The notes beneath the pieces were generated by a model. It was not told where the DNA came from, searched no databases, and worked only from the letters and a program-made list of their open reading frames with translations. Made by a program: the position numbers and the translations under genes. DNA of 64,000 bases from Pseudomonas sp. 31-12 (GTDB taxonomy: Bacteria > Pseudomonadota > Gammaproteobacteria > Pseudomonadales > Pseudomonadaceae): positions 4,278,001 through 4,342,000 of the forward strand of contig NZ_CP029482.1 of assembly GCF_003151075.1 (NCBI RefSeq). The letters run 5' to 3'. Of this stretch, positions 9,983 through 59,585 are shown one piece after another (the stretch's first letter is position 1; the number at the start of each line of letters is the position of its first letter).

Positions 9983-11188
9983 ATGAAACAGCACATTCTG
10001 GTTATCGGCGCGGGGTTCGGTGGTGTATGGAGTGCGTTGAGCGCCGCGCGGCTGCTGGACATGCACGACCGTAACGACGTGGACATCACCTTGCTGGCGC
10101 CTCAGGCGGAATTGCGCATCCGTCCCCGCTTCTACGAACCCGACGTGCACAAGATGTTCGTCCCGCTGGACGCACTGTTCGACTCGGTCGGCGTACGTTT
10201 CGTCAAAGGCATGGCCGAGCGTATCGACGAGCAGACAAAGACCGTCAGCTACCGCGATGAAGCGGGTCGCGAGGGGGCCTTGAGCTACGACCGTCTGGTG
10301 CTGGCGGCCGGCAGCCAGTTGGCCCGTCCGAAAGCAGTGCCGGGCCTTGCCGAGCACGCCTTCGATGTGGACCAGATCGAAGCCGCCGTGCGTTTGGAAA
10401 ACCACATCAAATCCCTCAAGGACAAGCCGTACAACGCTGCCCGCAACACGGTGGTGGTCGCCGGTGGCGGCTTTACCGGGATCGAGACCGGCACCGAGAT
10501 GCCGGCACGCCTGCGGGCTGTGCTGGGCGATGACCAGGACGTACGCGTGATCATCGTCGACCGCGCGCCGCAGATCGGTGCGACGTTGGGTGACGGTATT
10601 CGTCCGTCGCTCATCGAGGCCTCCGAACACCTGGGCGTCGAATGGATCGTCAACGCGAGTGTTGCTGCGGTGGACGCCAACGGCGTTACCCTCGCCGATG
10701 GCCGCCACATCGAGGCGCAAACGGTGATCTGGACCGTCGGTTTCCGCGCCAGTCCGCTGACCGAACATCTGACCAGCGATCGCGATCCGCAAGGACGCCT
10801 GCACGTCGATGAAAACCTGAAAGTGTTGGGCCAGAAGCATGTCTATGCCGCCGGCGACGTCGCCTATGCCGCCACCGACGATCTTGGCAACTTCGCCGCC
10901 ATGTCGTGCCAGCATGCGATCGCCCTGGGCCGTCACGCCGGGAACAACGTTGCTGCGGATCTGCTGGGCGTCGCGCCAACCCCTTACCGTCAACCGAAAT
11001 ACGTGACCTGCCTCGACCTGGGTGCCTGGGGCGCGGTGTTCACCGAAGGCTGGGATCGCCAGCTCAAACTGGTCAAGGACGAAGCCAAGGAGCTCAAGAC
11101 GCAGATCAACACCCAGTGGATCTACCCGCCAGCCGCTGATCGGGCCATTGCTTTGGCAGCGGCTGACCCGATGATTCCGGTGGCCTGA
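9983..11188 (+). CDS. NAD(P)/FAD-dependent oxidoreductase, NDH-2-like
   Basis: 401 residues from the ATG at 9983, which is preceded by AGGA; the upstream nine codons lack support. FAD motif VIGAGFGGVWSAL at the N-terminus, second dinucleotide motif VVVAGGGFTGIETG in the middle, and the flavin signature VYAAGDVAYA near residue 290. This is the pattern of type II NADH dehydrogenases and related pyridine-nucleotide-disulfide oxidoreductases lacking a redox CxxC. Probably membrane-peripheral, moving electrons from NAD(P)H to quinone or another acceptor. Single-gene unit with its own terminator. Confidence 0.88.
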   Translation: MKQHILVIGAGFGGVWSALSAARLLDMHDRNDVDITLLAPQAELRIRPRFYEPDVHKMFVPLDALFDSVGVRFVKGMAERIDEQTKTVSYRDEAGREGALSYDRLVLAAGSQLARPKAVPGLAEHAFDVDQIEAAVRLENHIKSLKDKPYNAARNTVVVAGGGFTGIETGTEMPARLRAVLGDDQDVRVIIVDRAPQIGATLGDGIRPSLIEASEHLGVEWIVNASVAAVDANGVTLADGRHIEAQTVIWTVGFRASPLTEHLTSDRDPQGRLHVDENLKVLGQKHVYAAGDVAYAATDDLGNFAAMSCQHAIALGRHAGNNVAADLLGVAPTPYRQPKYVTCLDLGAWGAVFTEGWDRQLKLVKDEAKELKTQINTQWIYPPAADRAIALAAADPMIPVA

Positions 11189-11207
11189 AGACCTGGCCTG
11201 AACCTGG

Positions 11208-11241
11208 CGCCCGCGACAACATCGCGGGCGTCTTCGTTTTT
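11208..11241 (+). terminator. Rho-independent terminator
   Basis: Stem CGCCCGCGA (11208-11216) / TCGCGGGCG (11222-11230), loop CAACA, followed by TCTTCGTTTTT. Ends the dehydrogenase transcript. Confidence 0.88.
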
Positions 11242-11357
11242 GCACCGTAAAGCCTGCTGCCGGACATGAATCGGCCATACACGGGCAGTCATGGTTTAAG
11301 CTCCGTTTGAAGTGTTCTCCGGACAAAAACTTCATGCGCTTAAACCTGAAGGTTCGT

Positions 11358-12809
11358 ATGCCCTCCTTGCTACCATTCCCGAATCAATCGCGCCGCCGCC
11401 CGTGCCTGCGATCCCTGCTGTTGCTGAGCTTCATCGTTCCTGGCATGGCCAGTGCCGAGTCAAAGCCGGAACACATGGTCTATCTGCGCACGATTGACCC
11501 CACCATCGAGCAAGACATCCGCTACGCCAGCGCCCACAACTTCACCGGACACCCACTCGACGGTTACGCCGCTGCCGAATGCCTGCTGTCGCTGGACACC
11601 GCCCAGGCCCTCGCCCGGGTGCAACAGGCACTTCAAAAGCAAGGCTACGGTTTGAAGGTGTTCGACTGCTATCGACCCAGCCGTGCGGTGGCCGATATGG
11701 GCCGCTTCGCGACTGAGCCGGGAGACCCGCGCAAGGCCGAGTTCTATCCGCGCGTGGACAAGCAGGACTTCTGGCGACTGGGGTATGTGGCGCGGGTGTC
11801 GAATCACTCCAGAGGCTCAACCGTCGACCTGACGCTGACCGGCCCCAAGGCACCATCCGCCGACACCTGGACACCTTCGGCCGCACAAGTCGATTGCACC
11901 GCGCCGTATGCCCAACGCTGGCACGACGGCGCACTCGACATGGGCACCGGGTACGATTGCTTTGATGAGCGCGCGCATACCGCCAACCCGACCATCAATG
12001 CGACCGCAAAGGAAAACCGTCAGCGACTCAGCAGCGCCATGGAAAAAGAGGGATTTGCCGGGTACTCGAAAGAGTGGTGGCACTTCACGTTCGGTGGAGA
12101 GGGAGCGCCGAAGAACGTGATGGATTTTCCCATTACGCCGCTGAGTGCCAGCGAAGTGCTGGACACCAGCCGCCAACTGATTGTGGTCACCACAAAAAAC
12201 TGGGATGACATTCAGGGCAATGCCCAGCGTTATGAGCGGGTTGGGGGAAGCTTTCGAAAAGTCGGTGACGGGTTTGCGGTGGTGGTCGGTAAGAACGGAA
12301 TGGCCTGGGGCAAGGGTCTGGGCAACGTTGAGCCCGGTGAAGGACCGGTCAAACGTGAAGGAGACGGGAAAGCGCCTGCGGGGATATTCAAGCTTGGAAC
12401 GGCGTTCGGCTACGACACGACGGGCAATACAAAACTGCCTTATCTCGCGCTGACATCAACCACGGAATGCGTGGATGACAGCAAATCCGCACGTTACAAC
12501 GAACTGGTAGACGGCGCGGCGACAGCCAAGGACTGGAACAGCTCTGAGCGGATGCGCAAAGAGGATGGCTACCGCAAAGGCATCTTTATCGAGCACAACA
12601 CGCCGGCGTCACCCGGTGGCGGTTCGTGCATTTTCTTCCATATCTGGCGCGGTCCTGACTCACCTACGTTGGGGTGTACGGCGATGGGTCAGGGGGATAT
12701 TTCGCGGTTGTTCGAGTGGCTGGATCCTCGTGAGTCTCCGGTGTTGGTGCAGATGCCTGAAGGGCAGTATGAGCAATGGCGTGGACGCTGGAAGTTGCCG
12801 CAGCATTGA
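11358..12809 (+). CDS. Periplasmic D-Ala-D-Ala dipeptidase (VanX/M15) fused to an L,D-transpeptidase-like domain
   Basis: Two peptidoglycan domains in one secreted chain. I set the start at 11358 (MPSLLPFPNQ) because GAAGG lies 6 bases before it; in-frame starts at 11307 and 11334 would only lengthen the leader. Signal peptide with RRR and hydrophobic core ends near GMASA. Counting from the 11307 codon: VanX-type zinc motif SNHSRGSTVD (S165, H167, D174) and EWWHF (E256, H259); then about residues 285-495 with HIWRGPDSPTLGC (H445, C457), the His/Gly-Cys active-site pattern of YkuD-type L,D-transpeptidases. Expected to trim D-Ala-D-Ala and to cleave or cross-link stem peptides in the periplasm. 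The second domain is the less certain call. Confidence 0.85.
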   Translation: MPSLLPFPNQSRRRPCLRSLLLLSFIVPGMASAESKPEHMVYLRTIDPTIEQDIRYASAHNFTGHPLDGYAAAECLLSLDTAQALARVQQALQKQGYGLKVFDCYRPSRAVADMGRFATEPGDPRKAEFYPRVDKQDFWRLGYVARVSNHSRGSTVDLTLTGPKAPSADTWTPSAAQVDCTAPYAQRWHDGALDMGTGYDCFDERAHTANPTINATAKENRQRLSSAMEKEGFAGYSKEWWHFTFGGEGAPKNVMDFPITPLSASEVLDTSRQLIVVTTKNWDDIQGNAQRYERVGGSFRKVGDGFAVVVGKNGMAWGKGLGNVEPGEGPVKREGDGKAPAGIFKLGTAFGYDTTGNTKLPYLALTSTTECVDDSKSARYNELVDGAATAKDWNSSERMRKEDGYRKGIFIEHNTPASPGGGSCIFFHIWRGPDSPTLGCTAMGQGDISRLFEWLDPRESPVLVQMPEGQYEQWRGRWKLPQH

Positions 12810-12879
12810 TAGAACAGGTGAATCGAGTGCTGAGTAACCACGTCCCAGTCGAGTAAGCGCGGAGCCCCTGCAGCTGCCG

Positions 12880-13010
12880 TTGTGGCGAGGGGGCTTGCCC
12901 CCGTTGGGCTGCGAAGCGGCCCCCTATATTCCTTCAGGCGCACGCAGCTTGAAGGATTGACGACTGCTGCGTAGCCGAACGCAGCCTCGCAAGCTCGGCA
13001 GCTGCAGGTT
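12880..13010. repeat. REP pair (GTGGCGAGG core)
   Basis: TGTGGCGAGGGGGCTTGCCC begins at 12881 and inverted partner sequences (GCTGCGTAGCCGAACGCAGCCTCGC..) run to about 13007. It is the second REP type of this chromosome, here between convergent genes, with a diverged right half. Confidence 0.7.
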
Positions 13011-13033
13011 AAGAGCGTTCGGGATTACATGAC

Positions 13034-13756
13034 TTATGCCACACCACGCTTGGCCTGCTGCTCCAGATGCACTTGCAGCTGCGGATCAATCTTCAGTGCA
13101 GCCGCCAGCTCATCCAGATAGTTGCGCTCGGCATCCTGCTGATCGTCCACCAGCATCACACTGGCCAGGTACATCTCTGACGCCATGCCAGGATCCGTTG
13201 CCGACTGCGCCACATCGGCAGCATCCAGCGGCCGGGCCACTTCGTCATCCAGCCATTGCTGCAGCTGCGGGTCGTCGGTGTGGCGGCCAATTTCGGTGCT
13301 GATCATCTGCTTCTCGGATTCATCGATCCGGCCATCAGCCTTGGCCGCCGCAATCAACGCGCGCAGGATCGCATGGCTGTGATCCTCGACTTCCGGGCCG
13401 GACAACAAGTCGACCGTGCGCGGTGCCTGTTGCGGCGCAGCCGCCTGACTGCGTTGCCACGCCTGATACGCCTGAAATGCCATCATTCCGAGGGAAGCCA
13501 GGGCCGCATAGTTGGTGCCGCCACCCGAGCGGGTCCGGGTCGCGCCGCCCATGGGCGAAGCGCCTCCCAGCAGGCCACCGAGCAATCCACCCAGTCCGCC
13601 GCCACCCATGGCTGAACCGCCGCCACCGCCCAACAGGCCGCCCAGCAACCCGCCAAGCCCGCCGCCGATGCCGTCCTGAGCGGATGCGCCACCCTGTTGC
13701 GCCCCGGAGCCCTGGCCGGCCCGCAGGAGTTGTTCGAGCAAATCGCTGGTGTTCAT
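13034..13756 (-). CDS. DUF533 (YebE/TerB-like) protein
   Basis: 240 residues. Start chosen at 13756 (MNTSDLLEQLL) with GAGGA upstream; the frame extends 14 codons earlier from a TTG. Residues about 15-100 are a very Gly-rich low-complexity stretch (repeated GGLGGLLGG) able to form a hydrophobic, perhaps membrane-inserting segment. The C-terminal half (LRALIAAAKADGRIDESEKQMI) is the TerB-like helical domain of DUF533 inner-membrane proteins. Molecular role unknown. Confidence 0.85.
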   Translation of the reverse strand: MNTSDLLEQLLRAGQGSGAQQGGASAQDGIGGGLGGLLGGLLGGGGGSAMGGGGLGGLLGGLLGGASPMGGATRTRSGGGTNYAALASLGMMAFQAYQAWQRSQAAAPQQAPRTVDLLSGPEVEDHSHAILRALIAAAKADGRIDESEKQMISTEIGRHTDDPQLQQWLDDEVARPLDAADVAQSATDPGMASEMYLASVMLVDDQQDAERNYLDELAAALKIDPQLQVHLEQQAKRGVA

Positions 13757-49138: not shown

Positions 49139-49480
49139 GGATTATCACCCTGTCGATGAAATGGAAGACGGCACGATGCTGCCGTTAATGACGCAATTGT
49201 GCCGCAAGAAGCGCGATCCAGGGCGTTTCCTTTGAACCAGCTATCACGGAGACACAACCTCGACCAACCAATGAATTTAGGCAATCTCTGACACGTTTGC
49301 GGGCGATGGACTACAACGCCAGTCGACTTCCATGTAGCCCCCAGCGCACAGGCTTTTCGCCTCATTTTGGCCCCTGAAAAACCCATGGAAAAATTCACTA
49401 GACATGTAGCGCGCACTACATAAATACTGTTTTAGCAATTTATGAAACAAAACCGACACACCCATCCAGCAGGAGCCCGG
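49139..49480. other. Divergent region with ATGTAG/CTACAT inverted repeat
   Basis: 342 bases between the phosphatase gene and the RpiR gene. I see no cobalamin riboswitch. It contains ATGTAG-N6-CTACAT at 49404-49421, and half-sites CTACA (near 49312) and TGTAG (near 49334). An in-frame ATG at 49442 lacks a ribosome site and is taken as upstream sequence. Confidence 0.55.
49404..49421. promoter_or_regulatory. Inverted repeat, candidate RpiR operator
   Basis: ATGTAG (49404-49409), spacer CGCGCA, CTACAT (49416-49421): a perfect inverted repeat 60 bases before the RpiR gene start, of the TGTAG/CTACA kind used by some RpiR-family regulators (for example HexR). Autoregulation and control of the downstream cluster are inferred. 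Confidence 0.6.
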
Positions 49481-50335
49481 ATGCCCTCTCTCAGAGACCT
49501 GATCACCGATCCCGGCCTGGACCTTACGCCGTCGGAACGCAAAGTCATTCGTGCCTTATTGGACCAGTACCCCCGTAACGGGCTGGGGCCGATGTCACGT
49601 TTGGCCGAACATGCCGGTGTCAGCGACCCCACCATCGTGCGGCTGGTGAAAAAACTGGGTTTCAGCGGTTACGCCGATTTTCAGGACGCCCTGCTCAGCG
49701 ACATGGACCACCGCCTGCGGTCCCCCAGCGCCTTATTACAGCTTCGCTCTCATCTTCAGAAAGGCGACGCCTGGAGCCATTATCTGGCGGACAGCCATCG
49801 GGCGCTGGTGGAAACCCATGCACTGACCCAGCCCGAAGACGTGCGGATTCTGGTGGAATGGCTGCTCGACACCCGCCATCAGGTTCACTGCTTTGGCGGA
49901 CGCTTCAGCAGTTTCCTCGCCAGCTATCTGCTCAACCATTTGCGCCTGCTGCGCCCGGGCTGCTTCGCCCTGGAAGACAACGCGCAACTGCCGGACCGGC
50001 TGTTCGACGTGCAGCGCCAGGACGTGGTGCTGGTGTTCGACTATCGCCGCTACCAATCACAGGCCCTGCGCGTGGCCAACGCGGCGAAAAGCCGAAATGC
50101 CCGCGTGGTGTTGTTCACTGATATCTATGCTTCACCGCTGCGAGAAATGGCTGACCTGATTATCAGTGCGCCGGTGGAATCGGTGTCGGCCTTCGACTCC
50201 ATGGTGCCGGCGCTGGCCCAGGTCGAGGCGCTGATTGCCTGTCTGACCCTGCGCAGCCCGGAGCTGGCCGATCGCCTGGAAGGCATCGATGCCCTGCGGA
50301 CCGACTTCGACACCCACCTGCTGGAGGATAAATAA
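49481..50335 (+). CDS. MurR/RpiR-family regulator
   Basis: 284 residues from the ATG at 49481, 5 bases after AGGAG; an upstream in-frame ATG at 49442 has no ribosome site. N-terminal HTH_6 domain (LTPSERKVIRALLDQYPRNGLGPMSRLAEHAGVSDPTIVRLVKKLGFSGYADFQDAL) and C-terminal SIS domain (VHCFGGRFSSFLASYLLNHLRLL). Begins the 49.5-56.7 kb cluster; only 2 bases separate it from the next gene. Effector is probably a pathway metabolite. Confidence 0.9.
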   Translation: MPSLRDLITDPGLDLTPSERKVIRALLDQYPRNGLGPMSRLAEHAGVSDPTIVRLVKKLGFSGYADFQDALLSDMDHRLRSPSALLQLRSHLQKGDAWSHYLADSHRALVETHALTQPEDVRILVEWLLDTRHQVHCFGGRFSSFLASYLLNHLRLLRPGCFALEDNAQLPDRLFDVQRQDVVLVFDYRRYQSQALRVANAAKSRNARVVLFTDIYASPLREMADLIISAPVESVSAFDSMVPALAQVEALIACLTLRSPELADRLEGIDALRTDFDTHLLEDK

Positions 50336-50337
50336 GG

Positions 50338-50982
50338 ATGTTCACGCTCCCCCATCACTCGCCCCGCGACTTGCCGTTCACTGCCAACCACACCGCGCTG
50401 TTGCTGGTAGACATGCAACGGGCCTGGCTCGAACCGCAGTTCGACCCGCACCTCAACGGACCGGATGGCGAATACTTCCTGACCCGCACCCACATGCAGG
50501 TGGTGCCCAATCAACGCCGGTTGCTCAGTGCATTTCGCAGCGCACGGCAAAACGTCCTGCACACGATCATCGAAAGCCTGACCGCCGACGGCCGCGACCG
50601 CTCGCTGGACCACAAGCTCTCGGACATGCACTTGCCCAAAGGCAGCGCATCGGCGCGGATCATCGACGACCTGACGCCTGTCGAAAACGAAATCGTTCTG
50701 CCCAAGACCTCCTCCGGGGTCTTCAACTCCACCAACATCGACTACGTGCTGCGCAATCTTGAGGCGCGGCACTTGATCATCGCCGGCATCGTCACCGACC
50801 AGTGCGTGGACATGGCCGTGCGTGACGCCGCAGACCGCGGCTACCTGGTGACGCTGGTGGAAGATGCCTGTGCGACCTACACGCCGCAGCGTCATCAAGC
50901 CTGCCTGAACGCGATCAAGGGTTACTGCTGGATCACCGACACCCAAACCGTGCTCGGCCGATTGCAGGAGATGCCAGCATGA
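50338..50982 (+). CDS. Isochorismatase-family cysteine hydrolase
   Basis: 214 residues. Catalytic triad of the family: D25 (LLLVDMQRAW), K123 (VLPKTSSGVF) and C156 (GIVTDQCVDMAVRDAADRG). Relatives hydrolyse amide or N-carbamoyl bonds (nicotinamidase, carbamoylsarcosine amidase, ureidoacrylate hydrolase). Stop overlaps the ligase start by ATGA. In this cluster it may free an amine or acid from an amide; substrate unknown. Confidence 0.9.
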   Translation: MFTLPHHSPRDLPFTANHTALLLVDMQRAWLEPQFDPHLNGPDGEYFLTRTHMQVVPNQRRLLSAFRSARQNVLHTIIESLTADGRDRSLDHKLSDMHLPKGSASARIIDDLTPVENEIVLPKTSSGVFNSTNIDYVLRNLEARHLIIAGIVTDQCVDMAVRDAADRGYLVTLVEDACATYTPQRHQACLNAIKGYCWITDTQTVLGRLQEMPA

Positions 50983-52310
50983 GCGAACGCCTGTCGCCGC
51001 TGCCCATGACCACCATCGTCACCACCGACCTGATCGGCGTGACCCGTGGCCGCTCGTTCCCCACCGATGAACTTGAACACTACGTGGCGACGGGTTGCGG
51101 CTGGGTGCCGGCCAACAGCGCCCTGACCCCGCAAGACGTCATCGCCTCCACCAACCCGTGGGGCGCCTATGGCGATCTACGCCTGATTCCCGACCTGAGC
51201 AGCCGGGTGACGGTGAGCAATGGCCCGGATGCCAAGGCCCCGGCATTGGACTTCATTCACGGCGACATTCGTGAAACCGATGGCCGCCCGTGGGGCGCCT
51301 GTCCGCGCACGCTGTTGCGCAATGAAGTGGAGCGCTATCGCGCCGAACTGGGTTTGCAGGTCAACGCCGCGTTCGAGCATGAATTCAACCTGGGCAGCGG
51401 CAAGGCCGATCAGCTGGCGTTCTCCCTTGAGGCACAGCGTCAGGGCGCCGAGTTCGGTGGCTGGCTGCTCAGCGCCCTGCGCGCCGGCGGCGTCGAACCG
51501 GAAATGTTCCTGCCCGAATACGGCAAGCATCAATACGAAATCACCTGCCGCCCCGCCCTCGGTGTAGCGGCGGCGGACCGTGCGGTGAACGTGCGCGAGA
51601 TTACTCGCGAGATCGCCCGGCAGATGGACCTGGACCTGAGCTTCGCGCCGAAGACGTCCGAGCATGCCGTGTGCAACGGCGTGCACCTGCATGTGAGCCT
51701 GCTGGACCTGGACGGCCAACCGCTGATGTACGACGCCGACACGATCAATGGCCTGTCGACTCTCGGCCAGCACTGGGCCGCCGGCATCCTGCATTACTTG
51801 CCGGCGCTGTGCGCGTTTACCGCGCCGACACCGGTGTCCTATGAACGATTGCAGCCGCATCACTGGAGCGCGTCCTACGCCTGCCTCGGCCAGCGCAACC
51901 GCGAAGCGGCGCTGCGGATCTGCCCGACCGTGAGCCTGGGCGGCAAATCCGTGGCAGCGCAATACAACCTCGAATTTCGCGCCATGGACGCCACGGCTTC
52001 GCCGCACCTGGCCATGGCCGCACTGCTGATTGCCGGTCGCCTGGGCATCGAACAACGCCTGGCCTTGAATGCGATCACCGATGAAACCCCCGATTCCCTG
52101 AACGAAGAGCAACGCCAGGCCCGCGGCATCGTCGCCCTGCCCGCGTCCCTTGACCAGGCGCTTGAGTGCCTGCGCAACAGCGAAGCGCTGATCGAAGCCC
52201 TGCCGAGTGAACTGATGGACACCTGGATCGCCCTTAAAACCGAGGAACTGACGCTGACGGAACAGCTGTCGCCCGCCGAACGCTGTGAGCACTATGCACG
52301 CGTGTACTGA
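50979..52310 (+). CDS. Glutamine-synthetase-family ligase (PuuA-like)
   Basis: 443 residues. GS catalytic-domain motifs: FEHEFNLG (metal glutamates), NGVHLHVSL (metal histidine and glutamate-site region), QRNREAALRICP (phosphate/ATP arginines) and LEFRAMDATASPHLAMAALLIAG. The N-terminal part is short. In this family PuuA and related enzymes join glutamate to an amine (gamma-glutamyl-putrescine, -ethanolamide, -methylamide). The next gene product may act on the resulting gamma-glutamyl compound. Start overlaps the hydrolase gene; the end overlaps the next gene by 17 bases. Confidence 0.9.
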   Translation: MSERLSPLPMTTIVTTDLIGVTRGRSFPTDELEHYVATGCGWVPANSALTPQDVIASTNPWGAYGDLRLIPDLSSRVTVSNGPDAKAPALDFIHGDIRETDGRPWGACPRTLLRNEVERYRAELGLQVNAAFEHEFNLGSGKADQLAFSLEAQRQGAEFGGWLLSALRAGGVEPEMFLPEYGKHQYEITCRPALGVAAADRAVNVREITREIARQMDLDLSFAPKTSEHAVCNGVHLHVSLLDLDGQPLMYDADTINGLSTLGQHWAAGILHYLPALCAFTAPTPVSYERLQPHHWSASYACLGQRNREAALRICPTVSLGGKSVAAQYNLEFRAMDATASPHLAMAALLIAGRLGIEQRLALNAITDETPDSLNEEQRQARGIVALPASLDQALECLRNSEALIEALPSELMDTWIALKTEELTLTEQLSPAERCEHYARVY

Positions 52311-53046
52311 ATCCGCTGAACGCGGTCTCTTTACCGAGCCCGCGTACACCCTGAGCCGCGAAGACTCGACACACCCGTTGATTCTGGTGTGCGAACACGC
52401 CAGCCGTTTTATCCCGGCCAGGTTGAATGACCTGGGCTTGAGTCATGCAGCGGCCCGCGAGCATATCGCCTGGGACATTGGCGCGCTGGCACTGGCGCAA
52501 GGTTTGTCCCAGGCACTGGGGGCAACGCTGCTGGCGGCCAATTACTCGCGGTTATTGGTTGACCTCAACCGCCCGCGCCATGCCCCGGACAGTATCCCGG
52601 CGCACAGCGAGATCTATCAGATACCGGGCAATCAGGATCTGGACGAGGCCACGCGCGAGTACCGCCGCGAATGCCTGTTCAAACCGTTTCATGCCCGGCT
52701 GCAAACCTTGATCGACCAGCGTGTCGCGCAAGGGCGGCCGGTTCGGGTGGTCGGCATTCACAGCTTCACCCCGATTTACCACGGCCAGCCACGCGCGCTG
52801 GAAGCCGGCGTGCTGTTTGGTGAAGCCAAGGGCTACGCCCAACGATTGATTGACGGGTTGAGCCAGCACCCCTTGAAGGTTGCCGGAAACGAGCCGTACA
52901 AAATCAATCCGCTGGGCGACATGACGGTGCCGGTGCATGGCGATGCTCGGGGATTGGAGTCGGTGTTGATCGAAGTGCGCAACGACCTGTTGCGCACCCC
53001 TGAAGAGGTCAGTCGCTGGACAGATTACCTGGCGCCACTGCTGTAA
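52294..53046 (+). CDS. N-formylglutamate amidohydrolase family protein
   Basis: 250 residues from the ATG at 52294 inside the end of the ligase gene (a GTG three codons earlier is possible). Family motifs: LILVCEHASRFIP (zinc histidine and glutamate), LVDLNRPRHAPDSI, VVGIHSFTPIYHGQPR. HutG-type enzymes release formate or a related acyl group from N-acyl amino acids. No hut genes are nearby, so the substrate is probably something else made in this cluster. Confidence 0.9.
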   Translation: MHACTESAERGLFTEPAYTLSREDSTHPLILVCEHASRFIPARLNDLGLSHAAAREHIAWDIGALALAQGLSQALGATLLAANYSRLLVDLNRPRHAPDSIPAHSEIYQIPGNQDLDEATREYRRECLFKPFHARLQTLIDQRVAQGRPVRVVGIHSFTPIYHGQPRALEAGVLFGEAKGYAQRLIDGLSQHPLKVAGNEPYKINPLGDMTVPVHGDARGLESVLIEVRNDLLRTPEEVSRWTDYLAPLL

Positions 53047-53102
53047 AAAATCGCGTAAAACCTGCAGCAAGCAGCTGCTTTCATCCCAAGGAGTAGGGCT
53101 TC

Positions 53103-54452
53103 ATGGAAATAGAAGAATTCGGCTACAAGCAAGAGTTGAAACGTAGCCTGTCACTGACCGACCTGGTGGTGTACGGGATGATCTTCATGATCCCCATCGC
53201 CCCGTTCGGAGTGTACGGTTATGTCAACGCCGAAGCGCCCGGGATGGTGCCGCTGGCCTACATCATCGGCATGGTCGCGATGCTGTTCACCGCCCTGAGT
53301 TACGGCAGCATGGCCCGGGCTTTTCCGATTGCGGGTTCGGTGTATTCCTACGCACAACGCGGCCTCAACCCGCATGTCGGGTTTATCGCCGGATGGCTGA
53401 TGCTGCTCGATTACCTGCTGATTCCACCGTTGCTCTACGTTTACGCGGCCATGGCGCTGAATCACCTTTATCCGGACATTCCCAAGGTCGGTTTCATCCT
53501 GGCGTTTCTGGTCAGCGCGACGTTCGTCAACCTGCGGGGCATCACGTTTACCGCCCGCATGAACATTGTGTTTCTGCTGGCGCAACTGGTGGTGCTGGGG
53601 ATCTTCCTGTTCTACGCCTGGAATGCGCTGCACAGCGGTGGCGGCAACGGTCAGCTAACCCTGGCGCCGTTGTACAACCCCGACACCTTCAATTTCGCCC
53701 TGCTGATGCAAGCGGTATCGATTGCGGTGCTGTCGTTCCTCGGTTTCGATGCGATCTCCACCCTCGCCGAAGAAATCAAGGGCGACCCGGGCCGCAGCGT
53801 CGGCAAGGCAGCGCTCATTACCCTCTTGGTGATGGGCGTGATCTTTGTCGTGCAGACCTGGATTGCCACTGACCTGGCGGCCGGCATGGGCTTCACCTCC
53901 GCCGACACCGCGTTCTATGAAATCGCCGAAATCGCCGCCGGCAGCTGGCTGGCGACCCTGACCGGCGTGGCCACGGCCCTGGCCTGGGGCGTAGCGGTCG
54001 CCATTACGTCGCAAGCGGCGGTATCGCGGCTGCTGTTCGGCATGGCCCGAGACGGCAAGCTGCCGAAAGTGCTGGCCAGGGTTCACCCGAAACACAACAC
54101 CCCGTACCTGAGCATCTACCTGGTGGCCGTGTTGTCTCTGGTGATTTGCTACCTGTTCATCAACTCGGTGGACACCCTCACCTCGCTGGTGAACTTCGGC
54201 GCGTTGAGCGGTTTCATGTTGCTGCACCTGACCGTGATCAATTACTACTGGCGTCGGCAGAAGTCCGGCCAGGTGATCCGTCACCTGATCTGCCCGGTAA
54301 TCGGCTTCATCATCGTCGCGGCCATCATGTACAACATGGGCGTCGATGCACAAAAACTCGGTCTGATCTGGATTGCCCTGGGCCTGGTGTATCTGTTCTT
54401 CCTGAACAGGCTCGGCGCCAGCACCGAATTGCCCGATCCGAGCAACGGCTGA
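53103..54452 (+). CDS. APC-family amino acid/amine permease
   Basis: 449 residues with about twelve hydrophobic helices, 56 bases after the preceding gene; CAAGGAG upstream of the ATG. APC marks: LSLTDLVVYGMIFMIPIAPFGVYGYV, ALSYGSMARAFPIAGSVYSYAQRGLNPHVGFIAGWLMLLDYLL, SFLGFDAISTLAEEIKGDPGRSVGKA. Close in style to putrescine/ethanolamine importers (PuuP/Eat). It probably brings in the substrate of the cluster. Confidence 0.9.
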   Translation: MEIEEFGYKQELKRSLSLTDLVVYGMIFMIPIAPFGVYGYVNAEAPGMVPLAYIIGMVAMLFTALSYGSMARAFPIAGSVYSYAQRGLNPHVGFIAGWLMLLDYLLIPPLLYVYAAMALNHLYPDIPKVGFILAFLVSATFVNLRGITFTARMNIVFLLAQLVVLGIFLFYAWNALHSGGGNGQLTLAPLYNPDTFNFALLMQAVSIAVLSFLGFDAISTLAEEIKGDPGRSVGKAALITLLVMGVIFVVQTWIATDLAAGMGFTSADTAFYEIAEIAAGSWLATLTGVATALAWGVAVAITSQAAVSRLLFGMARDGKLPKVLARVHPKHNTPYLSIYLVAVLSLVICYLFINSVDTLTSLVNFGALSGFMLLHLTVINYYWRRQKSGQVIRHLICPVIGFIIVAAIMYNMGVDAQKLGLIWIALGLVYLFFLNRLGASTELPDPSNG

Positions 54453-54527
54453 CAAGAAAAAGAGCGGCGTCTGACAAGAAATCAGGCGACCGCCGATTTA
54501 ATGCGTGGAAACCGACAGTGATAGTCA

Positions 54528-54550
54528 GGTTCGGCACACACCGCCGAACC
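54528..54550 (+). promoter_or_regulatory. Hairpin between permease and acyltransferase genes
   Basis: GGTTCGGC (54528-54535) pairs with GCCGAACC (54543-54550), loop ACACACC, followed by CTTTGATAC. It lies 21 bases before the next start codon. It may be a partial terminator that lowers expression of the acyltransferase genes. Confidence 0.45.
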
Positions 54551-54571
54551 CTTTGATACAGGAGTACATCC

Positions 54572-55588
54572 ATGCTGGTCTTACGCCCAGTCGAGTTAAC
54601 CGACCTGCCCCAGTTACAGCAACTGGCGCGCGACAGTCTGGTCGGTGTCACGTCCTTGCCGGACGACACTGAACGCCTGCGACTGAAGATACTCGACTCC
54701 TGCGCCTCGTTCGACAAAGACGTCGAGGTGCATGGCCCGGAGAATTATTTCTTCGTACTGGAGGATCTCGCGGCCCGGCGTCTGGTGGGTTGCTCGGAAA
54801 TCCTTGCCACCGCCGGCTTCAACGAACCGTTCTACAGCTTGCGCAACCGTCACTTCACCAGCGCTTCCCGAGAGCTGAACATCGAACACGGCGTGCCGGC
54901 GTTGTCGTTGTGCCAGGACCTCAGCGGCCACACCTTGCTGCGGGGTTTTCATATCGACACGGCACTGGTGCGCACAGCGTTTTCGGAGTTGCTGTCCCGG
55001 GCGCGCCTGTTGTTCATCGCCGCCCATTCGCAGCGCTTTGCCGAAGCGGTGATCACCGAGATCGTCGGTTTCAGCAGCGAGGAGGCGCAGTCACCGTTCT
55101 GGGATGCGCTGGGCAAGCATTTCTTCGATTTACCCTACGCCGAGGCCGAGCGGCTCTGCGGTCTGGAGAGCCGGACCTTCCTCGCCGAACTGATGCCGCA
55201 ATACCCGATCTACGTGCCGATGCTGCCCCAGGCTGCGCAGGATTGCATCGGCCGGATTCACCCCGACGGCCAGGAGGCCTTCGATATCCTTGAGCGCGAG
55301 GGATTTGAAACCAACAGCTACATCGACCTGTTTGACGCAGGCCCGACGCTGTATGCGCGCACCTCGAACATTCTCTCCATCGCGCAAAGCCAGATCGGTA
55401 CGGTGCAGTCGGCTTCGTCCATTGAGGCGAGCGGCCGTTACCTGGTGAGCAACGATTCGCTGAAGGATTACCGCGCCATCGTCGCCGAACTGAGTGTCCA
55501 GGCTGGGCAACCGGTAGGGTTGAGCGTCGAGATGTGCGCCGCCCTGAGCGTGACCGATGGCAGCCCGATCCGCCTGATTGCCCTGTGA
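54572..55588 (+). CDS. Arginine N-succinyltransferase-like protein, subunit 1
   Basis: 338 residues, AGGAG 7 bases upstream. Whole length fits the AstA/AruF family: LRPVELTDLPQLQQLARDSLVGVTSLPDD, FFVLEDLAARRLVGCSEILATAGFNEPFYSLRN, ITEIVGFSSEEAQSPFWDALGKHFFDLPYAEAERLCGLESRTFLAELMPQYPIYVPMLP, FDILEREGFETNSYIDLFDAGPTL. AstA enzymes succinylate arginine or ornithine with succinyl-CoA. It is not inside an ast/aru operon here (no AstB, AstC, AstD or AstE beside it). Substrate likely a different amino acid or amine. Confidence 0.88.
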   Translation: MLVLRPVELTDLPQLQQLARDSLVGVTSLPDDTERLRLKILDSCASFDKDVEVHGPENYFFVLEDLAARRLVGCSEILATAGFNEPFYSLRNRHFTSASRELNIEHGVPALSLCQDLSGHTLLRGFHIDTALVRTAFSELLSRARLLFIAAHSQRFAEAVITEIVGFSSEEAQSPFWDALGKHFFDLPYAEAERLCGLESRTFLAELMPQYPIYVPMLPQAAQDCIGRIHPDGQEAFDILEREGFETNSYIDLFDAGPTLYARTSNILSIAQSQIGTVQSASSIEASGRYLVSNDSLKDYRAIVAELSVQAGQPVGLSVEMCAALSVTDGSPIRLIAL

Positions 55589-55649
55589 GCATCACCCGGC
55601 CTCGTGCCCAACGACAGCGCCCGAACTGGCGCGAAGAAGGAGCTGCATC

Positions 55650-56684
55650 ATGATTGTCCGTCCGGTTCACGTCACCGACCTGCCCGCCTTGATGGACCTG
55701 GTGCAACAGGCCGGCCCCGGCTTCACCACCCTGCCGGCCAACGAAGAGCGTCTGGTGCACCGGGTGCGCTGGGCCCAACGGACCTTCGCCGAACAGGTCG
55801 AGCGTGCGGATGCCGATTACCTGTTCGTGCTGGAAGATGACGATCAGCAAGTGGTCGGCATCAGTGCGTTGGCCGGCGCCGTTGGCCTGCGTGAGCCCTG
55901 GTACAACTATCGGGTCGGGCTGACGGTCAGTTCGTCGCCGGACCTGGGTATTCAGCGGCAGATTCCGACGCTGTTCCTGAACAACGAAATGACTGGCCAA
56001 TCGGAAATCTGCTCGCTGTTTCTACACCCCGATCAACGCCATGGCAGCAATGGTCGGTTGCTGTCCCTGGGACGCTTGCTGTTCGTGGCCGAGTTCCCGC
56101 ACCTGTTCGGCGACAAGCTGATTGCCGAACTGCGCGGCAGCGCCGACGAAAACGGCTGTTCGCCGTTCTGGGACAGCCTGGGCCGGCACTTCTTCAAGAT
56201 GGACTTCAGCCACGCCGATCACCTGTCGGGGCTGGGCAGCAAACCGTTCATCGCCGAACTGATGCCACGCCAGCCGCTCTACACCTGCCTGCTCACCGAA
56301 CAGGCCCAGGCCGTCATCGGCAAGGCACACCCGAACACCGAACCGGCGTTGAAGATCCTCAGCGCCGAAGGATTTGTGCATCAGGGCTACATCGACATCT
56401 TCGACGCCGGCCCGGTGATCGAAGCCCCGGTCGCGAAAATCCGCACCGTGCGCGACAGTCAGCCCCTGGTATTGGCCATCGGCACGCCTGACGAACAGGC
56501 CCCGGTGTGGCTGATTCACAACCGCCGCCTGGAAAACTGCCGCATCACCACCGCTCAGGCCCGGTTGGTAGGCAACAGCCTGATCGTCGACCGACTCACG
56601 GCCAAACGCCTGCAACTGCAACCGGGGAATTCGGTGCGGGCGGTGTTGTTGCCCAATCGACAGCAGCAGGCTGTGGCGGCCTGA
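55650..56684 (+). CDS. Arginine N-succinyltransferase-like protein, subunit 2
   Basis: 344 residues from the ATG at 55650 (GAAGGAG upstream). Paralogue of the preceding gene: VRPVHVTDLPALMDLVQQAGPGFTTLPANEERL, FVLEDDDQQVVGISALAGAVGLREPWYNYRVG, AELRGSADENGCSPFWDSLGRHFFKMDFSHADHLSGLGSKPFIAELMPRQPLY. The two form a heteromer in the AruF/AruG manner. Same operon; a REP follows it, closing the cluster. Confidence 0.88.
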   Translation: MIVRPVHVTDLPALMDLVQQAGPGFTTLPANEERLVHRVRWAQRTFAEQVERADADYLFVLEDDDQQVVGISALAGAVGLREPWYNYRVGLTVSSSPDLGIQRQIPTLFLNNEMTGQSEICSLFLHPDQRHGSNGRLLSLGRLLFVAEFPHLFGDKLIAELRGSADENGCSPFWDSLGRHFFKMDFSHADHLSGLGSKPFIAELMPRQPLYTCLLTEQAQAVIGKAHPNTEPALKILSAEGFVHQGYIDIFDAGPVIEAPVAKIRTVRDSQPLVLAIGTPDEQAPVWLIHNRRLENCRITTAQARLVGNSLIVDRLTAKRLQLQPGNSVRAVLLPNRQQQAVAA

Positions 56685-57016
56685 TCGCCACCACTACTGT
56701 GGCGAGGGAGCTTGCTCCCGCTGGGCTGCGAAGCGGCCCCAAAAAACCAGCTCCCCCATTTATCTGGCATACCGCATTCGCCAATTGACGACTGCTGCGC
56801 AGCCGAGCGGGAGCAAGCTCCTCGCCACAGGTAAATCTCCTCGCCACAACCCTCTTCACCACAGACACACCTCCTGGCCACAAAGGGTCCGCGTCTATCT
56901 GAGCCACCCCGCAAATTCGTCATCATCTTCCCCTCGTCCGCGTGATAGCCTTTTGTTCCTTCGGCGTTGACACCTTTGCTCAAGCCTTTCCATTCCTTTG
57001 TATTGGTGGAACTCAT
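56685..57016. other. 332-base region with REPs
   Basis: Most of it is the REP array at 56698-56830 and a further partial CTCGCCACA copy to about 56850. The last ~150 bases hold the promoter of the oxaloacetate decarboxylase-like gene; no ORF is supported. Confidence 0.55.
56698..56830. repeat. REP pair (GTGGCGAGGGAGCTTGCTCCCGCTGG core)
   Basis: TGTGGCGAGGGAGCTTGCTC and inverted partner ending GAGCAAGCTCCTCGCCACAG, the right end missing one base of the usual core; more CTCGCCACA fragments follow. Confidence 0.82.
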
Positions 57017-57886
57017 ATGTCCAGGCTTTCTCATCAAGATTTGCGCCGTAACTTCCGCGAGCTTTTTGCTTCCAACACCTGCTATCACACGGCGTCGGTT
57101 TTCGACCCGATGTCGGCCCGCATTGCCGCTGACCTGGGGTTTGAAGTGGGTATCCTCGGTGGCTCAGTCGCCTCGTTGCAGGTGCTGGGTGCCCCCGACT
57201 TCGCCTTGATCACCCTCAGCGAGTTCGCCGAACAGGCCACGCGCATCGGCCGTGTCGCCCAATTGCCGGTCATCGCCGACGCCGACCACGGCTACGGCAA
57301 CGCGCTCAACGTGATGCGCACCATCGTCGAACTGGAACGCGCCGGCATCGCCGCGCTGACCATCGAAGACACCCTGTTGCCAGCGCAATTCGGCCGCAAA
57401 TCCACCGATCTGATCGGCGTCGCGGAAGGCGTCGGCAAGATTCGCGCGGCACTGGAAGCCCGGGTTGACTCGGAAATGGCGATCATCGCGCGGACCAACG
57501 CCGGGATCCTGCCCGTTCAGGAAGTCATCAGCCGTACCTGCCATTACCAGCAGGCCGGTGCGGACGGGATTTGCATGGTGGGTGTGCGGGACTTCGATCA
57601 CCTCGAACAGATTGCCGAACACCTGAGCGTGCCACTGATGCTGGTCACCTACGGCAACCCTCTGCTGCGTGACGACAAACGCCTGGCGGAACTGGGCGTG
57701 CGGGTGACCATTGATGGTCATGGCGCGTACTTCGCAGCGATCAAAGCGACCTACGACAGTTTGCGCGAACAGCGGCAGATCTTTACCCAGGCGTCGGATT
57801 TGAGCGCTACCGAGTTGACTCACACGTATACGCAACCTGAGGAATACATTCGTTGGGCGGAAGAGTTTATGAGTGTGAAGGAATAG
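57017..57886 (+). CDS. Oxaloacetate decarboxylase of the isocitrate lyase/PEP mutase family
   Basis: 289 residues from the ATG at 57017 with GGTGGAA upstream; the frame extends 25 codons further back. PEP mutase/isocitrate lyase motifs: [51 protein letters not shown] (metal aspartates), [18 protein letters not shown]. The subgroup without the lyase cysteine loop matches PA4872 of P. aeruginosa, characterised as an oxaloacetate decarboxylase. Substrate could also be another 2-oxo dicarboxylate. Single gene. Confidence 0.85.
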
Positions 57887-58043: not shown

Positions 58044-59284
58044 TCAGCGCTTCGCCAACTCCATGATCATCCGCGACAACAGATAAATCCGCGGCGCCAC
58101 GCTTTCTACTTCTGCGTACTCTTCAGGCGTATGAATATTGCCGCCAACAATCCCGAACCCATCCAGCGTCGGCGTGCCCACACCGGCTGAGAGGCTGGCA
58201 TCCGCTGCCCCGCCACTGCCTTCTTCCGTCAACTTGCGCCCGATCTCACCGTAAATCCCCTGGGCCATGGCCATCAGCCGATCCGATTCCGCCGTCTGCG
58301 GCATCGGCGGCAGACCGCGTTGTAGCGTGGTGGTGACTTCGGTGTCCGCAATCAGCTTGTCTTTGGAAACCCGCGCCAGGTCCTTCTCGATCCGGTCAAA
58401 CTCTTCCGGTACCGCCGCCCGCACGTCAGCCTTGGCGGTGGCCTGATCCGGAATCACGTTCGTGCGGTCGCCCGACTTGATCACCGTGAAGTTGATGGTG
58501 GTTTTCTTCTCGGCGTCGCCCAGTTTGCCGAGCTGCAGAATCTGGTGCGCCGCTTCCATCGCCGCGTTGCGGCCCAGTTCCGGCGCGACACCGGCGTGGG
58601 CGGCTTTGCCTTTGACTTCCACCACCGCCGTCGCGCTGCCTTTGCGCCACACCACCAGACCATCCGCCGGGCGGCCCGGCTCGAGGTTGAGGGTTACATC
58701 GTGGGCCTTGGCGGTTTTCTTGATCAGGTCGGTGGCGATGTCCGAGCCGGTTTCTTCGCTGGCGTCGAGCAGGAAGGTAATTAGCGCGTAATCCTTGAAG
58801 TCGAGGTTTTTCAGGACTTTCAGCGCGTAGATCCCGGCGACGATACCGCCCTTGTCGTCCATCACGCCCGGACCGTAGGCGCGGCCGTCCTTGATGTGGA
58901 ACGGGCGCTCGGCGGCCGAGCCTTCCTTGAACACGGTATCCATGTGCGCCATCAGCAGGATTTTCGCCTTGCCGGTGCCTTTGAGGGTGGCGATCACGTG
59001 GCTGCTTTTGTCCGGTGTGTTCGGCACCAGTTCGATGCTGAAGCCGAGTTTTTTCAGCTCGTCGATGGCGATGTCGCGTACTTGCGTCAGACCGGGTTCA
59101 TAGCCGGAACCGGAGTCGATGTTCACCAGGCGTTCCAGCAATTTCAGGGCTTGCCCCTTGTACTGTTCGGAATCGGCGAGGACTTGTTTGTGGGGTTCGG
59201 CAAGACCGCCGGGGCGAATACGCCGAGGGCGAGGGTCAGGCCAAGGCTGGTGGCCAGCAGGGAACGAGGGAGATTGAGCGTCAT
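58044..59284 (-). pseudogene. Secreted M20 glutamate carboxypeptidase-like protein, frameshifted behind its signal peptide
   Basis: The mature M20 domain reads cleanly (MAHMDTVFKEG, GPGVMDDKGGIV, LLDASEETGSD with catalytic glutamate) and ends at 58044, but its frame upstream runs into REP sequence and has no signal peptide. A different frame gives MTLNLPRSLLATSLGLTLALG from the ATG at 59284, with AAGGA 7 bases upstream, a good signal peptide. The two frames meet near 59206-59210, where adding one base to GACCGCC (expected GACCCGCC) gives an unbroken 413-residue protein, the normal length of CPG2/carboxypeptidase G-type enzymes. So the gene carries a one-base deletion or a sequencing error. 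If real it is a pseudogene. Confidence 0.85.
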
Positions 59285-59585
59285 GAATCGGTCCTTGTTT
59301 CGTGTCGGGGAACCGAAACCCTACCTCACTGAGCTGCTTGGCTCTATGCCGAATGCGACCCCAACAGAACTGGCACACCGCAATTCCCCTGTGGGAGCGG
59401 GCCTTTGTGGTGAGGGAATTTATCCCCGTTGGGATGCGAAGCAGCCCCAGTTCTGCCATTGCGTTTTTCAGGCACGCCGCGTTCAGTGGTTTACGACTGC
59501 TTCGCAGCCGAACGGGGATAAATCCCCTCGCCACAAAAGCCCTTTAGCCACATAGGTTCGTTCCCACAGGGATGTTTGCGGGCTT
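59285..59585. other. Intergenic region with a long compound REP
   Basis: 301 bases upstream of the M20 gene. About 59386-59575 is a compound of REP pieces (GTGGGAGCGGGCC then GTGGTGAGGGAATTTATCCCC with an inverted partner). No gene is supported. Confidence 0.55.
59386..59575. repeat. Compound REP (AATTTATCCCC core)
   Basis: A GTGGGAGCGGGCC half is joined to TGTGGTGAGGGAATTTATCC with an inverted partner ending CCCCTCGCCACA. The core AATTTATCCCC is a rarer variant of the GTGGCGAGG type. Confidence 0.75.

Follow-up and report, generated by a model that had tools for sequence, protein, structure and literature searches.

In the 64,000-nucleotide stretch of the Pseudomonas sp. 31-12 chromosome analyzed here (NZ_CP029482.1, positions 4,278,001 to 4,342,000; referred to as the window), seven genes at positions 49481 to 56684 form a cluster headed by an RpiR-family regulator. 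Comparison across genomes divided this cluster into a five-gene core, comprising RpiR, a cysteine hydrolase, a glutamine synthetase (GS)-like ligase, an N-formylglutamate amidohydrolase (FGase)-type enzyme, and an APC permease, and an add-on consisting of a pair of AstA-family genes. The RpiR, hydrolase, ligase, and FGase genes of the core recur elsewhere in Pseudomonadota, and outside Pseudomonas 14 of 23 loci with these four genes also carry a homologue of alpha-amino-epsilon-caprolactam racemase. We tentatively propose that the cluster is a catabolic gamma-glutamylation module that releases ornithine from an alpha-amino lactam or amide, with ornithine lactam as the likeliest substrate. The novelty would lie in this variant of gamma-glutamylation catabolism; the core genes and their order are already known from P. 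aeruginosa.

The core operon and its AstA partner

The features of the cluster, with positions in the window, are as follows.

49140..49480, plus strand: region upstream of rpiR, probable operon promoter, parts of which are kept upstream of astA1 in relatives lacking the core
49481..50335, plus strand: RpiR/MurR-family regulator (Pfam SIS and HTH_6)
50338..50982, plus strand: isochorismatase-family cysteine hydrolase (Pfam Isochorismatase) with D25, K123, and C156
50979..52310, plus strand: GS-like ligase, predicted to act as a gamma-glutamyl-amine ligase (Pfam Gln-synt_N_2 and Gln-synt_C), 64.5% identical to PA5508/PauA7 (PDB 4hpp)
52285..53046, plus strand: FGase-family amidohydrolase (Pfam PF05013), probable gamma-glutamyl-amino-acid hydrolase; start GTG, or ATG at 52294
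53103..54452, plus strand: APC-superfamily permease (Pfam AA_permease), probable importer
54453..54571, plus strand: APC-astA1 spacer of 119 bp, conserved in core-less relatives, where it forms the right edge of the missing stretch
54572..55588, plus strand: AstA1, paralogue of the AruF-like arginine/ornithine succinyltransferase alpha-type subunit (Pfam AstA, PF04958)
55650..56684, plus strand: AstA2, paralogue of the AruG/AstA-like succinyltransferase subunit (Pfam AstA, PF04958)

All seven genes lie on the plus strand of the 6.73-Mb chromosome, and Pfam confirmed for each the family that an earlier, sequence-only reading of this DNA had given it. The rpiR start was placed at 49481, not 49442; the open reading frames (ORFs) in L121, L133, and L169 begin with MTNLREQ, MTNLRDK, and MPSLKDR, respectively, and match the former position. 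The astA2 start is the ATG at 55650, which is preceded by AAGGAG. Tight spacing, which that reading ascribed to the entire cluster, holds for the first four genes (a 2-bp gap between rpiR and the hydrolase gene, then overlaps of 4 bp between hydrolase and ligase and 26 bp between ligase and FGase) but not for the later ones, where the gaps are 56 bp (FGase-APC), 119 bp (APC-astA1), and 61 bp (astA1-astA2).

Among 119 genomes sampled from the genus, 34 had the ligase at E ≤ 1e-120. Judging from ligase and astA1 coordinates compared by eye, the AstA pair stood next to the core in 31 of the 34, where astA1 follows the start or end of the ligase gene at a distance of about 3.3 to 3.6 kb; in G048, G058, and G072, it was absent beside the core and from 19-kb stretches as well. 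The five core genes were matched in 80 of 80 named Pseudomonas loci, with a short APC match in L102, which argues that the operon is not a chance arrangement. astA1 and astA2 were matched in 79 and 78 of these loci, respectively, the exceptions being L111, whose contig ends after astA1, and L121, which has no AstA pair. As for L102 (P. fluorescens HK44), AstA follows although the APC match is confined to 12198-12620, and the APC gene there seems truncated or misassembled. P. fluorescens FW300-N2E3 (L106) also carries the cluster.

Two points raised with the sequence-only reading were whether the whole gene order is conserved and whether the genes are found separately in most genomes. The seven-gene order was conserved across the P. 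fluorescens/mandelii group, and within the genus the genes mostly stood together, as the 31/34 count indicates; outside it, however, the core recurred without AstA, which adjoined the core in 0/18 sister-genus loci and in 0/48 more distant loci scanned. Core-only loci comprise L121, L131 to L133, L147, L148, and 16 more sister-genus loci. Conversely, six genomes (G002, G021, G038, G086, G087, and G106) carry a close astA1-astA2-PEP-mutase set with no ligase at E ≤ 1e-120. A single indivisible seven-gene pathway, as first envisaged, is contradicted by these core-only and AstA-only genomes. Each module thus occurs in the absence of the other, and the comparison of loci indicates that AstA often accompanies the core but is not essential to it.

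The core-less loci look, from their sequence, like products of core deletion. In the five of six that could be aligned (L125 starts too near a contig end), the junction upstream of astA1 consists of the rpiR upstream region, including 10 to 60 bp of rpiR, followed by the last bases of the APC gene or the spacer. At L124 and L126 to L129, the AstA pair adjoins counterparts of the two genes located before rpiR in the window, a cobF-like and a histidine-phosphatase-like gene. In an 88-row AstA tree, on which the nearest relative of the window is Pseudomonas mandelii 6A1 (96%), core-less rows are nested within core-bearing rows, a pattern that calls for two changes of state or perhaps just one. 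AstA remains under purifying selection after core loss: the median ratios of nonsynonymous to synonymous substitution (dN/dS, calculated pairwise and counted only at dS of 0.3 to 1.2) were 0.137 and 0.135 for core-less pairs (14 and 15 pairs), 0.137 and 0.121 for core versus core pairs, and 0.153 and 0.129 for core-less versus core pairs. Decay of AstA following core loss was therefore set aside, as pairwise dN/dS rises slightly at most. A rate comparison against control genes, of which the output was partial, gave L124 a ratio of 1.17; the median for core genomes was 0.79, but 11 of the 76 reached or exceeded the L124 value, and there was no clear signal.

The gene at 57014-57886 (plus strand) encodes a PEP-mutase/isocitrate-lyase superfamily protein; in many relatives, this gene comes right after astA1 and astA2, and it remains with them after core loss. 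It had the lowest dN/dS (about 0.04 to 0.05) among nine genes measured.

Racemase homologues at core loci outside Pseudomonas

We collected 48 non-Pseudomonas loci around ligases 37 to 58% identical to that of the window; several of these loci share a genome or come from close kin, and L150, which has the same gene order and an APC-type importer at a contig end, was left out of the count. The phylum and class searches scored only 4 candidates per genome, and their matches (18/398 and 25/385) are lower bounds; ligase matches on plasmids numbered 639 records, from 10 of which loci were taken. Both hydrolase and FGase were present at 32 of the 48 loci, 23 of which also carried RpiR and thus the full core. 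LIV-type ABC permease genes accompanied 21 of these 23, with a binding protein as well in 20. An AstA match was found at none of the 48.

A class III pyridoxal phosphate protein of the racemase group was present at 14 of the 23 full-core loci, and three more were found at the 16 loci whose stretch lacks hydrolase or FGase. The Maritalea protein scored 541 bits against 2zuk (alpha-amino-epsilon-caprolactam racemase), 545 against 5m46 (listed as aminotransferase class III; presumably a caprolactam racemase), and 510 against 6gio (amino acid amide racemase), compared with 273 for the next family, and the L149 protein ranked PDB entries in the same way. The Asp and Lys that are replaced by Ala in 5m4b and 5m4d, and that we assume to be catalytic, were kept in 17 of 17 proteins above 300 bits and at 6 further plasmid loci. 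In a Pfam tally of 92 leftover neighbor ORFs from 18 full-core loci, class III aminotransferase was the commonest family (8 ORFs, fusions included). An ornithine aminotransferase identity, considered for the class III protein after an NCBIfam scan, was rejected, as the PDB scores place it in the racemase group. Other class III proteins scored ≤175 bits against the racemase homologue, lacked the Asp/Lys pair, and were not counted; those excluded were the APH-containing fusion types of L145, L155, L160, L161, and L188, the split one of L200, those of L139, L159, and L189, and second copies in L149, L206, and L219. L149 is the racemase-bearing locus closest to the window: it comes from the same family as Pseudomonas, and its hydrolase is 74% identical.

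The association was also seen from the racemase side. Racemase matches at E ≤ 1e-90 occurred in 84 plasmid records, and all six regions picked (two from Klebsiella, two from Sinorhizobium, and one each from Shinella and Rhizobium) carry RpiR, FGase, hydrolase, and ligase, although plasmids are not independent samples. Five more racemase records (L137, L138, L141, L142, and L211) had been found earlier from the ligase side and make no independent test. The Klebsiella plasmid ligase is only 34% identical to that of the window, and one Klebsiella record labels its gene 2-aminohexano-6-lactam racemase.

Several arrangements at these loci were observed in their own right. A near-identical racemase gene (97 to 100%) is carried by 45 Klebsiella plasmids and 1 Pluralibacter plasmid, and L215 and L216 (Klebsiella) group hydrolase, FGase, RpiR, ligase, APC, and racemase. 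Another Klebsiella plasmid region (L222:2890-10524) groups lrp, an ornithine cyclodeaminase, the citrulline hydrolase CtlX, and AstC-A-D-E. A link between racemase and AstA on Klebsiella plasmids, for which each search returned 45 Klebsiella records, was set aside; in the single record examined that carries both, about 57 kb separates them. At L156, L157, L217, L218, and L220, each cluster has two different cysteine hydrolases of the family, the second adjoining the racemase homologue. A domain scan of L145 identified an APH kinase-M23 peptidase-class III aminotransferase fusion of about 1000 residues beside the core (10419-13448), and L155, L160, L161, and L188 have similar fusions. In Terrarubrum (L140:8038-10299), an RpiR-type (SIS) protein and the ligase are annotated as one fused protein, a direct regulator-ligase link.

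Proposed pathway

In the proposed route, which would operate under RpiR control, the APC permease would import a compound with a free amine adjacent to a lactam or amide bond, and the GS-like ligase, with ATP, would attach glutamate to this amine via its gamma-carboxyl. The cysteine hydrolase would then open the lactam or amide to give a gamma-glutamyl-amino acid, which FGase would cleave to glutamate and the free amino acid. In the lineage of the window, the amino acid would most likely be ornithine, and the AstA pair would pass it to the succinyl (AST) pathway. Gene content, protein families, catalytic residues, conservation, and the recurring partners are observations, whereas the substrate, the product, the sequence in which the two hydrolases act, and the role of AstA as a sink are inferred from them.

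We favor an alpha-amino lactam or amide because such a compound offers the amine for the ligase, the bond for the cysteine hydrolase, and the stereocenter for the racemase, and we regard this substrate class as a call that could fall either way. Once glutamylated, it would be hydrolyzed to precisely the type of gamma-glutamyl-amino acid expected as the substrate of such an FGase. Ornithine is proposed as the product, with moderate confidence, because ornithine-consuming enzymes recur beside the core, namely, the AstA pair and, in some relatives, a cyclodeaminase. The likeliest single substrate would be L-ornithine lactam (3-aminopiperidin-2-one), which the racemase presumably accepts, followed by ornithinamide or a related alpha-amino lactam; that it is exactly ornithine lactam is doubtful. 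More broadly and more hesitantly, we suggest that the core may be an undescribed catabolic pathway for alpha-amino lactams or amides, with a glutamate tag, opening by the cysteine hydrolase, and deglutamylation, and may represent the context in which alpha-amino-epsilon-caprolactam racemase, familiar chiefly from industrial use, works in nature; individual lineages would then have acquired their own sinks for ornithine (the AstA pair or cyclodeaminase). The part of the literature that our limited search located names no pathway for the operon, and we make no claim of absence from print.

The ligase is very probably a gamma-glutamyl ligase, given its likeness to PA5508 (64.5% identity over 442 aligned positions; 629.5 bits, versus 114 for the next PDB sequence). 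A ligase ortholog was found in 18 of 25 sister-genus genomes, and the copy of G569 (L168), apparently a P. aeruginosa-like genome, is 96% identical to PA5508. According to passages in papers citing Ladner 2012, PA5508 is a gamma-glutamyl ligase and favors bulky or aromatic amines over linear polyamines (PMC6478659; PMC6529630), and cyclic 3-aminopiperidin-2-one would be consistent with that preference. Consistent with a catabolic role, a study of the P. aeruginosa Crc regulon includes pauA7 and PA5510 in its tables (PMC6235884). The excerpts consulted also mention that PA5506-PA5509 were overexpressed in PAO1 with every tested plasmid except one (PMC6246594) and that PA5507 and PA5509 were altered in an nrdR mutant (PMC4409342).

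The FGase is likely a deglutamylase, by analogy with the ethanolamine gamma-glutamylation route, for whose last step, gamma-glutamylglycine amidohydrolase, the passages available predict a PF05013 protein (PMC9397018, PMC6529630). Loci in Rhizobium leguminosarum and Ruegeria combine RpiR, FGase, an importer, and the ligase with an aldehyde dehydrogenase (ALDH) and an iron-type alcohol dehydrogenase (Fe-ADH), and their FGases are 46% and 43% identical, respectively, to the window copy. This pairing of FGase with ligase suggests that the ligase would add glutamate, that FGase would remove it, and that the enzymes in the middle would define the chemistry.

In the cysteine hydrolase, the triad noted in the sequence-only reading is present and near invariant: among 131 core-bearing loci selected from those collected, D25 and K123 were found in all 131 and C156 in 130. 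Residues 80 to 93 (SLTxDGRDRSLDxK) are conserved in at least 97% of these loci and may form a substrate loop specific to the cassette.

AstA1 and AstA2 are 57% and 67% identical, respectively, to the other AstA pair of the genome at 5.26 Mb. AstA2 scored 450.4 bits against a cutoff of 391, and AstA1 scored 419.9 against the alpha-subunit cutoff of 458.8; both exceed the subfamily cutoff of 284.35, and the names of AstA-family enzymes give arginine and ornithine as substrates. At L121, which has no AstA, an ornithine cyclodeaminase gene begins 136 bp after APC; the family scores were 565 bits for L121 and 563 bits for L147 (cutoff, 350). Of the 18 sister-genus loci, 12 have an ornithine cyclodeaminase gene downstream of the core, and in L151 and L152 one adjoins the LIV genes. 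The window genome has none above the cutoff (best, 76.8 bits). A presumed ornithine cyclodeaminase in L141 (Sulfitobacter) came closest to the pyrroline/piperideine-2-carboxylate reductase model and was not counted.

Alternative explanations

Three findings weigh most against lactam or amide catabolism: the kinship of the hydrolase to ureide-type enzymes, the missing racemase in the genus, and the independence of AstA. The nearest solved sequences of the hydrolase are a "cysteine hydrolase" (6xix), the ureidoacrylate amidohydrolase RutB, and biuret hydrolase, and the named ones act on ureides, not lactams. No racemase was detected at E ≤ 1e-70 among the 119 genus genomes, for which at most 15 candidates per genome were scored, in a set without a positive control; outside the genus, it is missing from 9 of 23 full-core loci and from the same-order locus L150. 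AstA stays constrained after core loss and hence has a role of its own. The cyclodeaminase link is also open to objection: the 12 sister-genus loci probably reflect a single event in their ancestry; at L147, the one locus examined, an lrp gene stands between APC and the cyclodeaminase gene, which may thus be a separate unit; and cyclodeaminase occurs in 46 of 119 genus genomes and 15 of 34 core genomes, with none of the 15 beside the core (coordinates compared by eye). At L168, whose ligase is 96% identical to PA5508, and at L169 to L173, the region read contains no AstA and no cyclodeaminase gene. Furthermore, the literature located, seen in part, offers no enzyme or growth evidence on lactams, and one excerpt states that PA5508 glutamylates spermidine and putrescine (PMC11335346).

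This last activity would suit a PauA-type gamma-glutamyl-putrescine/spermidine route, as would the name PauA7 and the entry of PA5508 as a gamma-glutamyl-polyamine synthetase in a review table (PMC9397018). We nevertheless consider polyamine catabolism very improbable: in the passage available from a paper citing Yao 2011, PA5508 is the only one of seven pauA genes without polyamine induction (PMC6478659), the window ligase scored 272.2 bits against a gamma-glutamylputrescine synthetase cutoff of 650, and no Puu-route oxidase or aldehyde dehydrogenase was present among the eight window proteins scanned with Pfam. The in vitro preference of PA5508 for bulky or aromatic amines, together with the identity of the window ligase to it, instead agrees with catabolism or detoxification of a bulky or aromatic, catecholamine-like biogenic amine, the hydrolases processing the glutamylated product. 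This is unlikely, given that no oxygenase, amine oxidase, or dehydrogenase was found among the same eight proteins and that the AstA, racemase, and cyclodeaminase partners would go unexplained; the passages at hand are silent on whether PA5508 was tried with alpha-amino amides or lactams.

The ureide kinship of the hydrolase points to another possibility, in which the substrate would be citrulline or another carbamoyl or ureido amino acid; with its alpha-amine protected by the ligase, it would lose the carbamoyl group to the cysteine hydrolase, and FGase would free ornithine. AstA and cyclodeaminase would fit this product, and the LIV-type permeases outside Pseudomonas and the Klebsiella plasmid grouping of cyclodeaminase, CtlX, and AstA are in line with it. 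However, similarity to ureide hydrolases is low (85.7 bits against a BiuH cutoff of 370 and 80.6 against a RutB cutoff of 378), and the linkage of a lactam/amide racemase to the core would have no explanation; we think such a ureido route quite unlikely. Compatible with lactam or amide catabolism by the core is a functionally independent AstA pair, a second succinyltransferase for arginine, ornithine, or a homologue that merely shares the promoter. The six core-less genomes, the rpiR-region and APC-end remains at the five junctions, the similar dN/dS with and without the core, and the core without AstA in G048, G058, G072, L121, and all 18 sister-genus loci speak for it, whereas its position directly downstream in 31 of 34 core genomes and the pair already present at 5.26 Mb speak against it. 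On balance, we consider independence somewhat doubtful. Catabolism of an alpha-amino lactam or amide stays our preferred, tentative reading of the core.

Neighboring sequences

An M20-type carboxypeptidase-like ORF, judged by sequence alone, lies at 58044-59534 (minus strand), and L127 has a similar ORF just past its PEP-mutase gene. A scan of the region for promoters and terminators was uninformative: one weak sigma-70-like site, at 49399-49428, did not exceed shuffled sequence (1 found versus a mean of 1.8). An Rfam scan of the window returned zero RNA families.

Comparison with known systems

The seven-gene observation of the sequence-only reading was confirmed, and its interpretation was partly supported: an amine or unusual amino acid that is protected, cut, and acylated comes near to what the comparative evidence suggests. 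Its exclusion of puu, hut, and ast also held. Like the puu pathway, the proposed route would begin with a GS-like ligase, but that ligase falls far below the PuuA-type cutoff and the window cluster has no oxidase or dehydrogenase. The FGase scored 34.5 bits on the HutG equivalog model, against a cutoff of 278.75. The cluster shares two AstA-family subunits with the AST/aru arginine-ornithine succinyltransferase pathway; however, AstB, -C, -D, and -E are not beside the window pair, whose neighbors are APC and the PEP-mutase-like protein.

The combination had been thought to be without described precedent, which did not hold in two respects. The ligase and FGase have counterparts in the gamma-glutamyl-ethanolamine route proposed for Streptomyces coelicolor (SCO1610-1615) and Chromohalobacter, which begins with a GS-like ligase and finishes with a PF05013 hydrolase, and the ethanolamine-type loci of Rhizobium and Ruegeria are likewise linked to RpiR, with APC or TRAP importers. 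The window differs from these in having a cysteine hydrolase in the middle instead of Fe-ADH (PF00465) and ALDH (PF00171), for which the eight scanned proteins gave zero matches; moreover, GlnA is the top-ranking match of the Rhizobium ligase, whereas for the window ligase it is gamma-glutamylputrescine synthetase. If our proposal is true, gamma-glutamylation catabolism would gain a branch based on hydrolysis, the ethanolamine branch being oxidative as described in the sources seen.

The first five genes are of the P. aeruginosa pauA7 locus type (PA5506-PA5510, where PA5508 is PauA7), and G569 (L168) shows the same succession of RpiR, hydrolase, ligase, FGase, and APC; for the genes other than PA5508, we assume the functions in PAO1. 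No AstA pair lies beside APC in G569, in contrast to the window (54572-56684). The literature located, as far as seen, assigns no pathway to PA5506-PA5510 and gives PA5508 no agreed in-cell substrate despite its solved structure; genomic context now provides a short list, alpha-amino lactams or amides yielding an ornithine-type amino acid. The racemase-homologue loci of Shinella, Ensifer, Sinorhizobium, and Klebsiella plasmids share the RpiR, hydrolase, ligase, and FGase core with the window. They differ from it in carrying the racemase together with a LIV-type ABC importer (rhizobia) or a distant APC importer (Klebsiella), whereas the window cluster has AstA and, by Pfam scan, no racemase gene. 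The proposed pathway, if true, would explain a cassette that is shared by Pseudomonas, rhizobia, and plasmids of Klebsiella and would suggest a physiological role for alpha-amino-lactam racemases.

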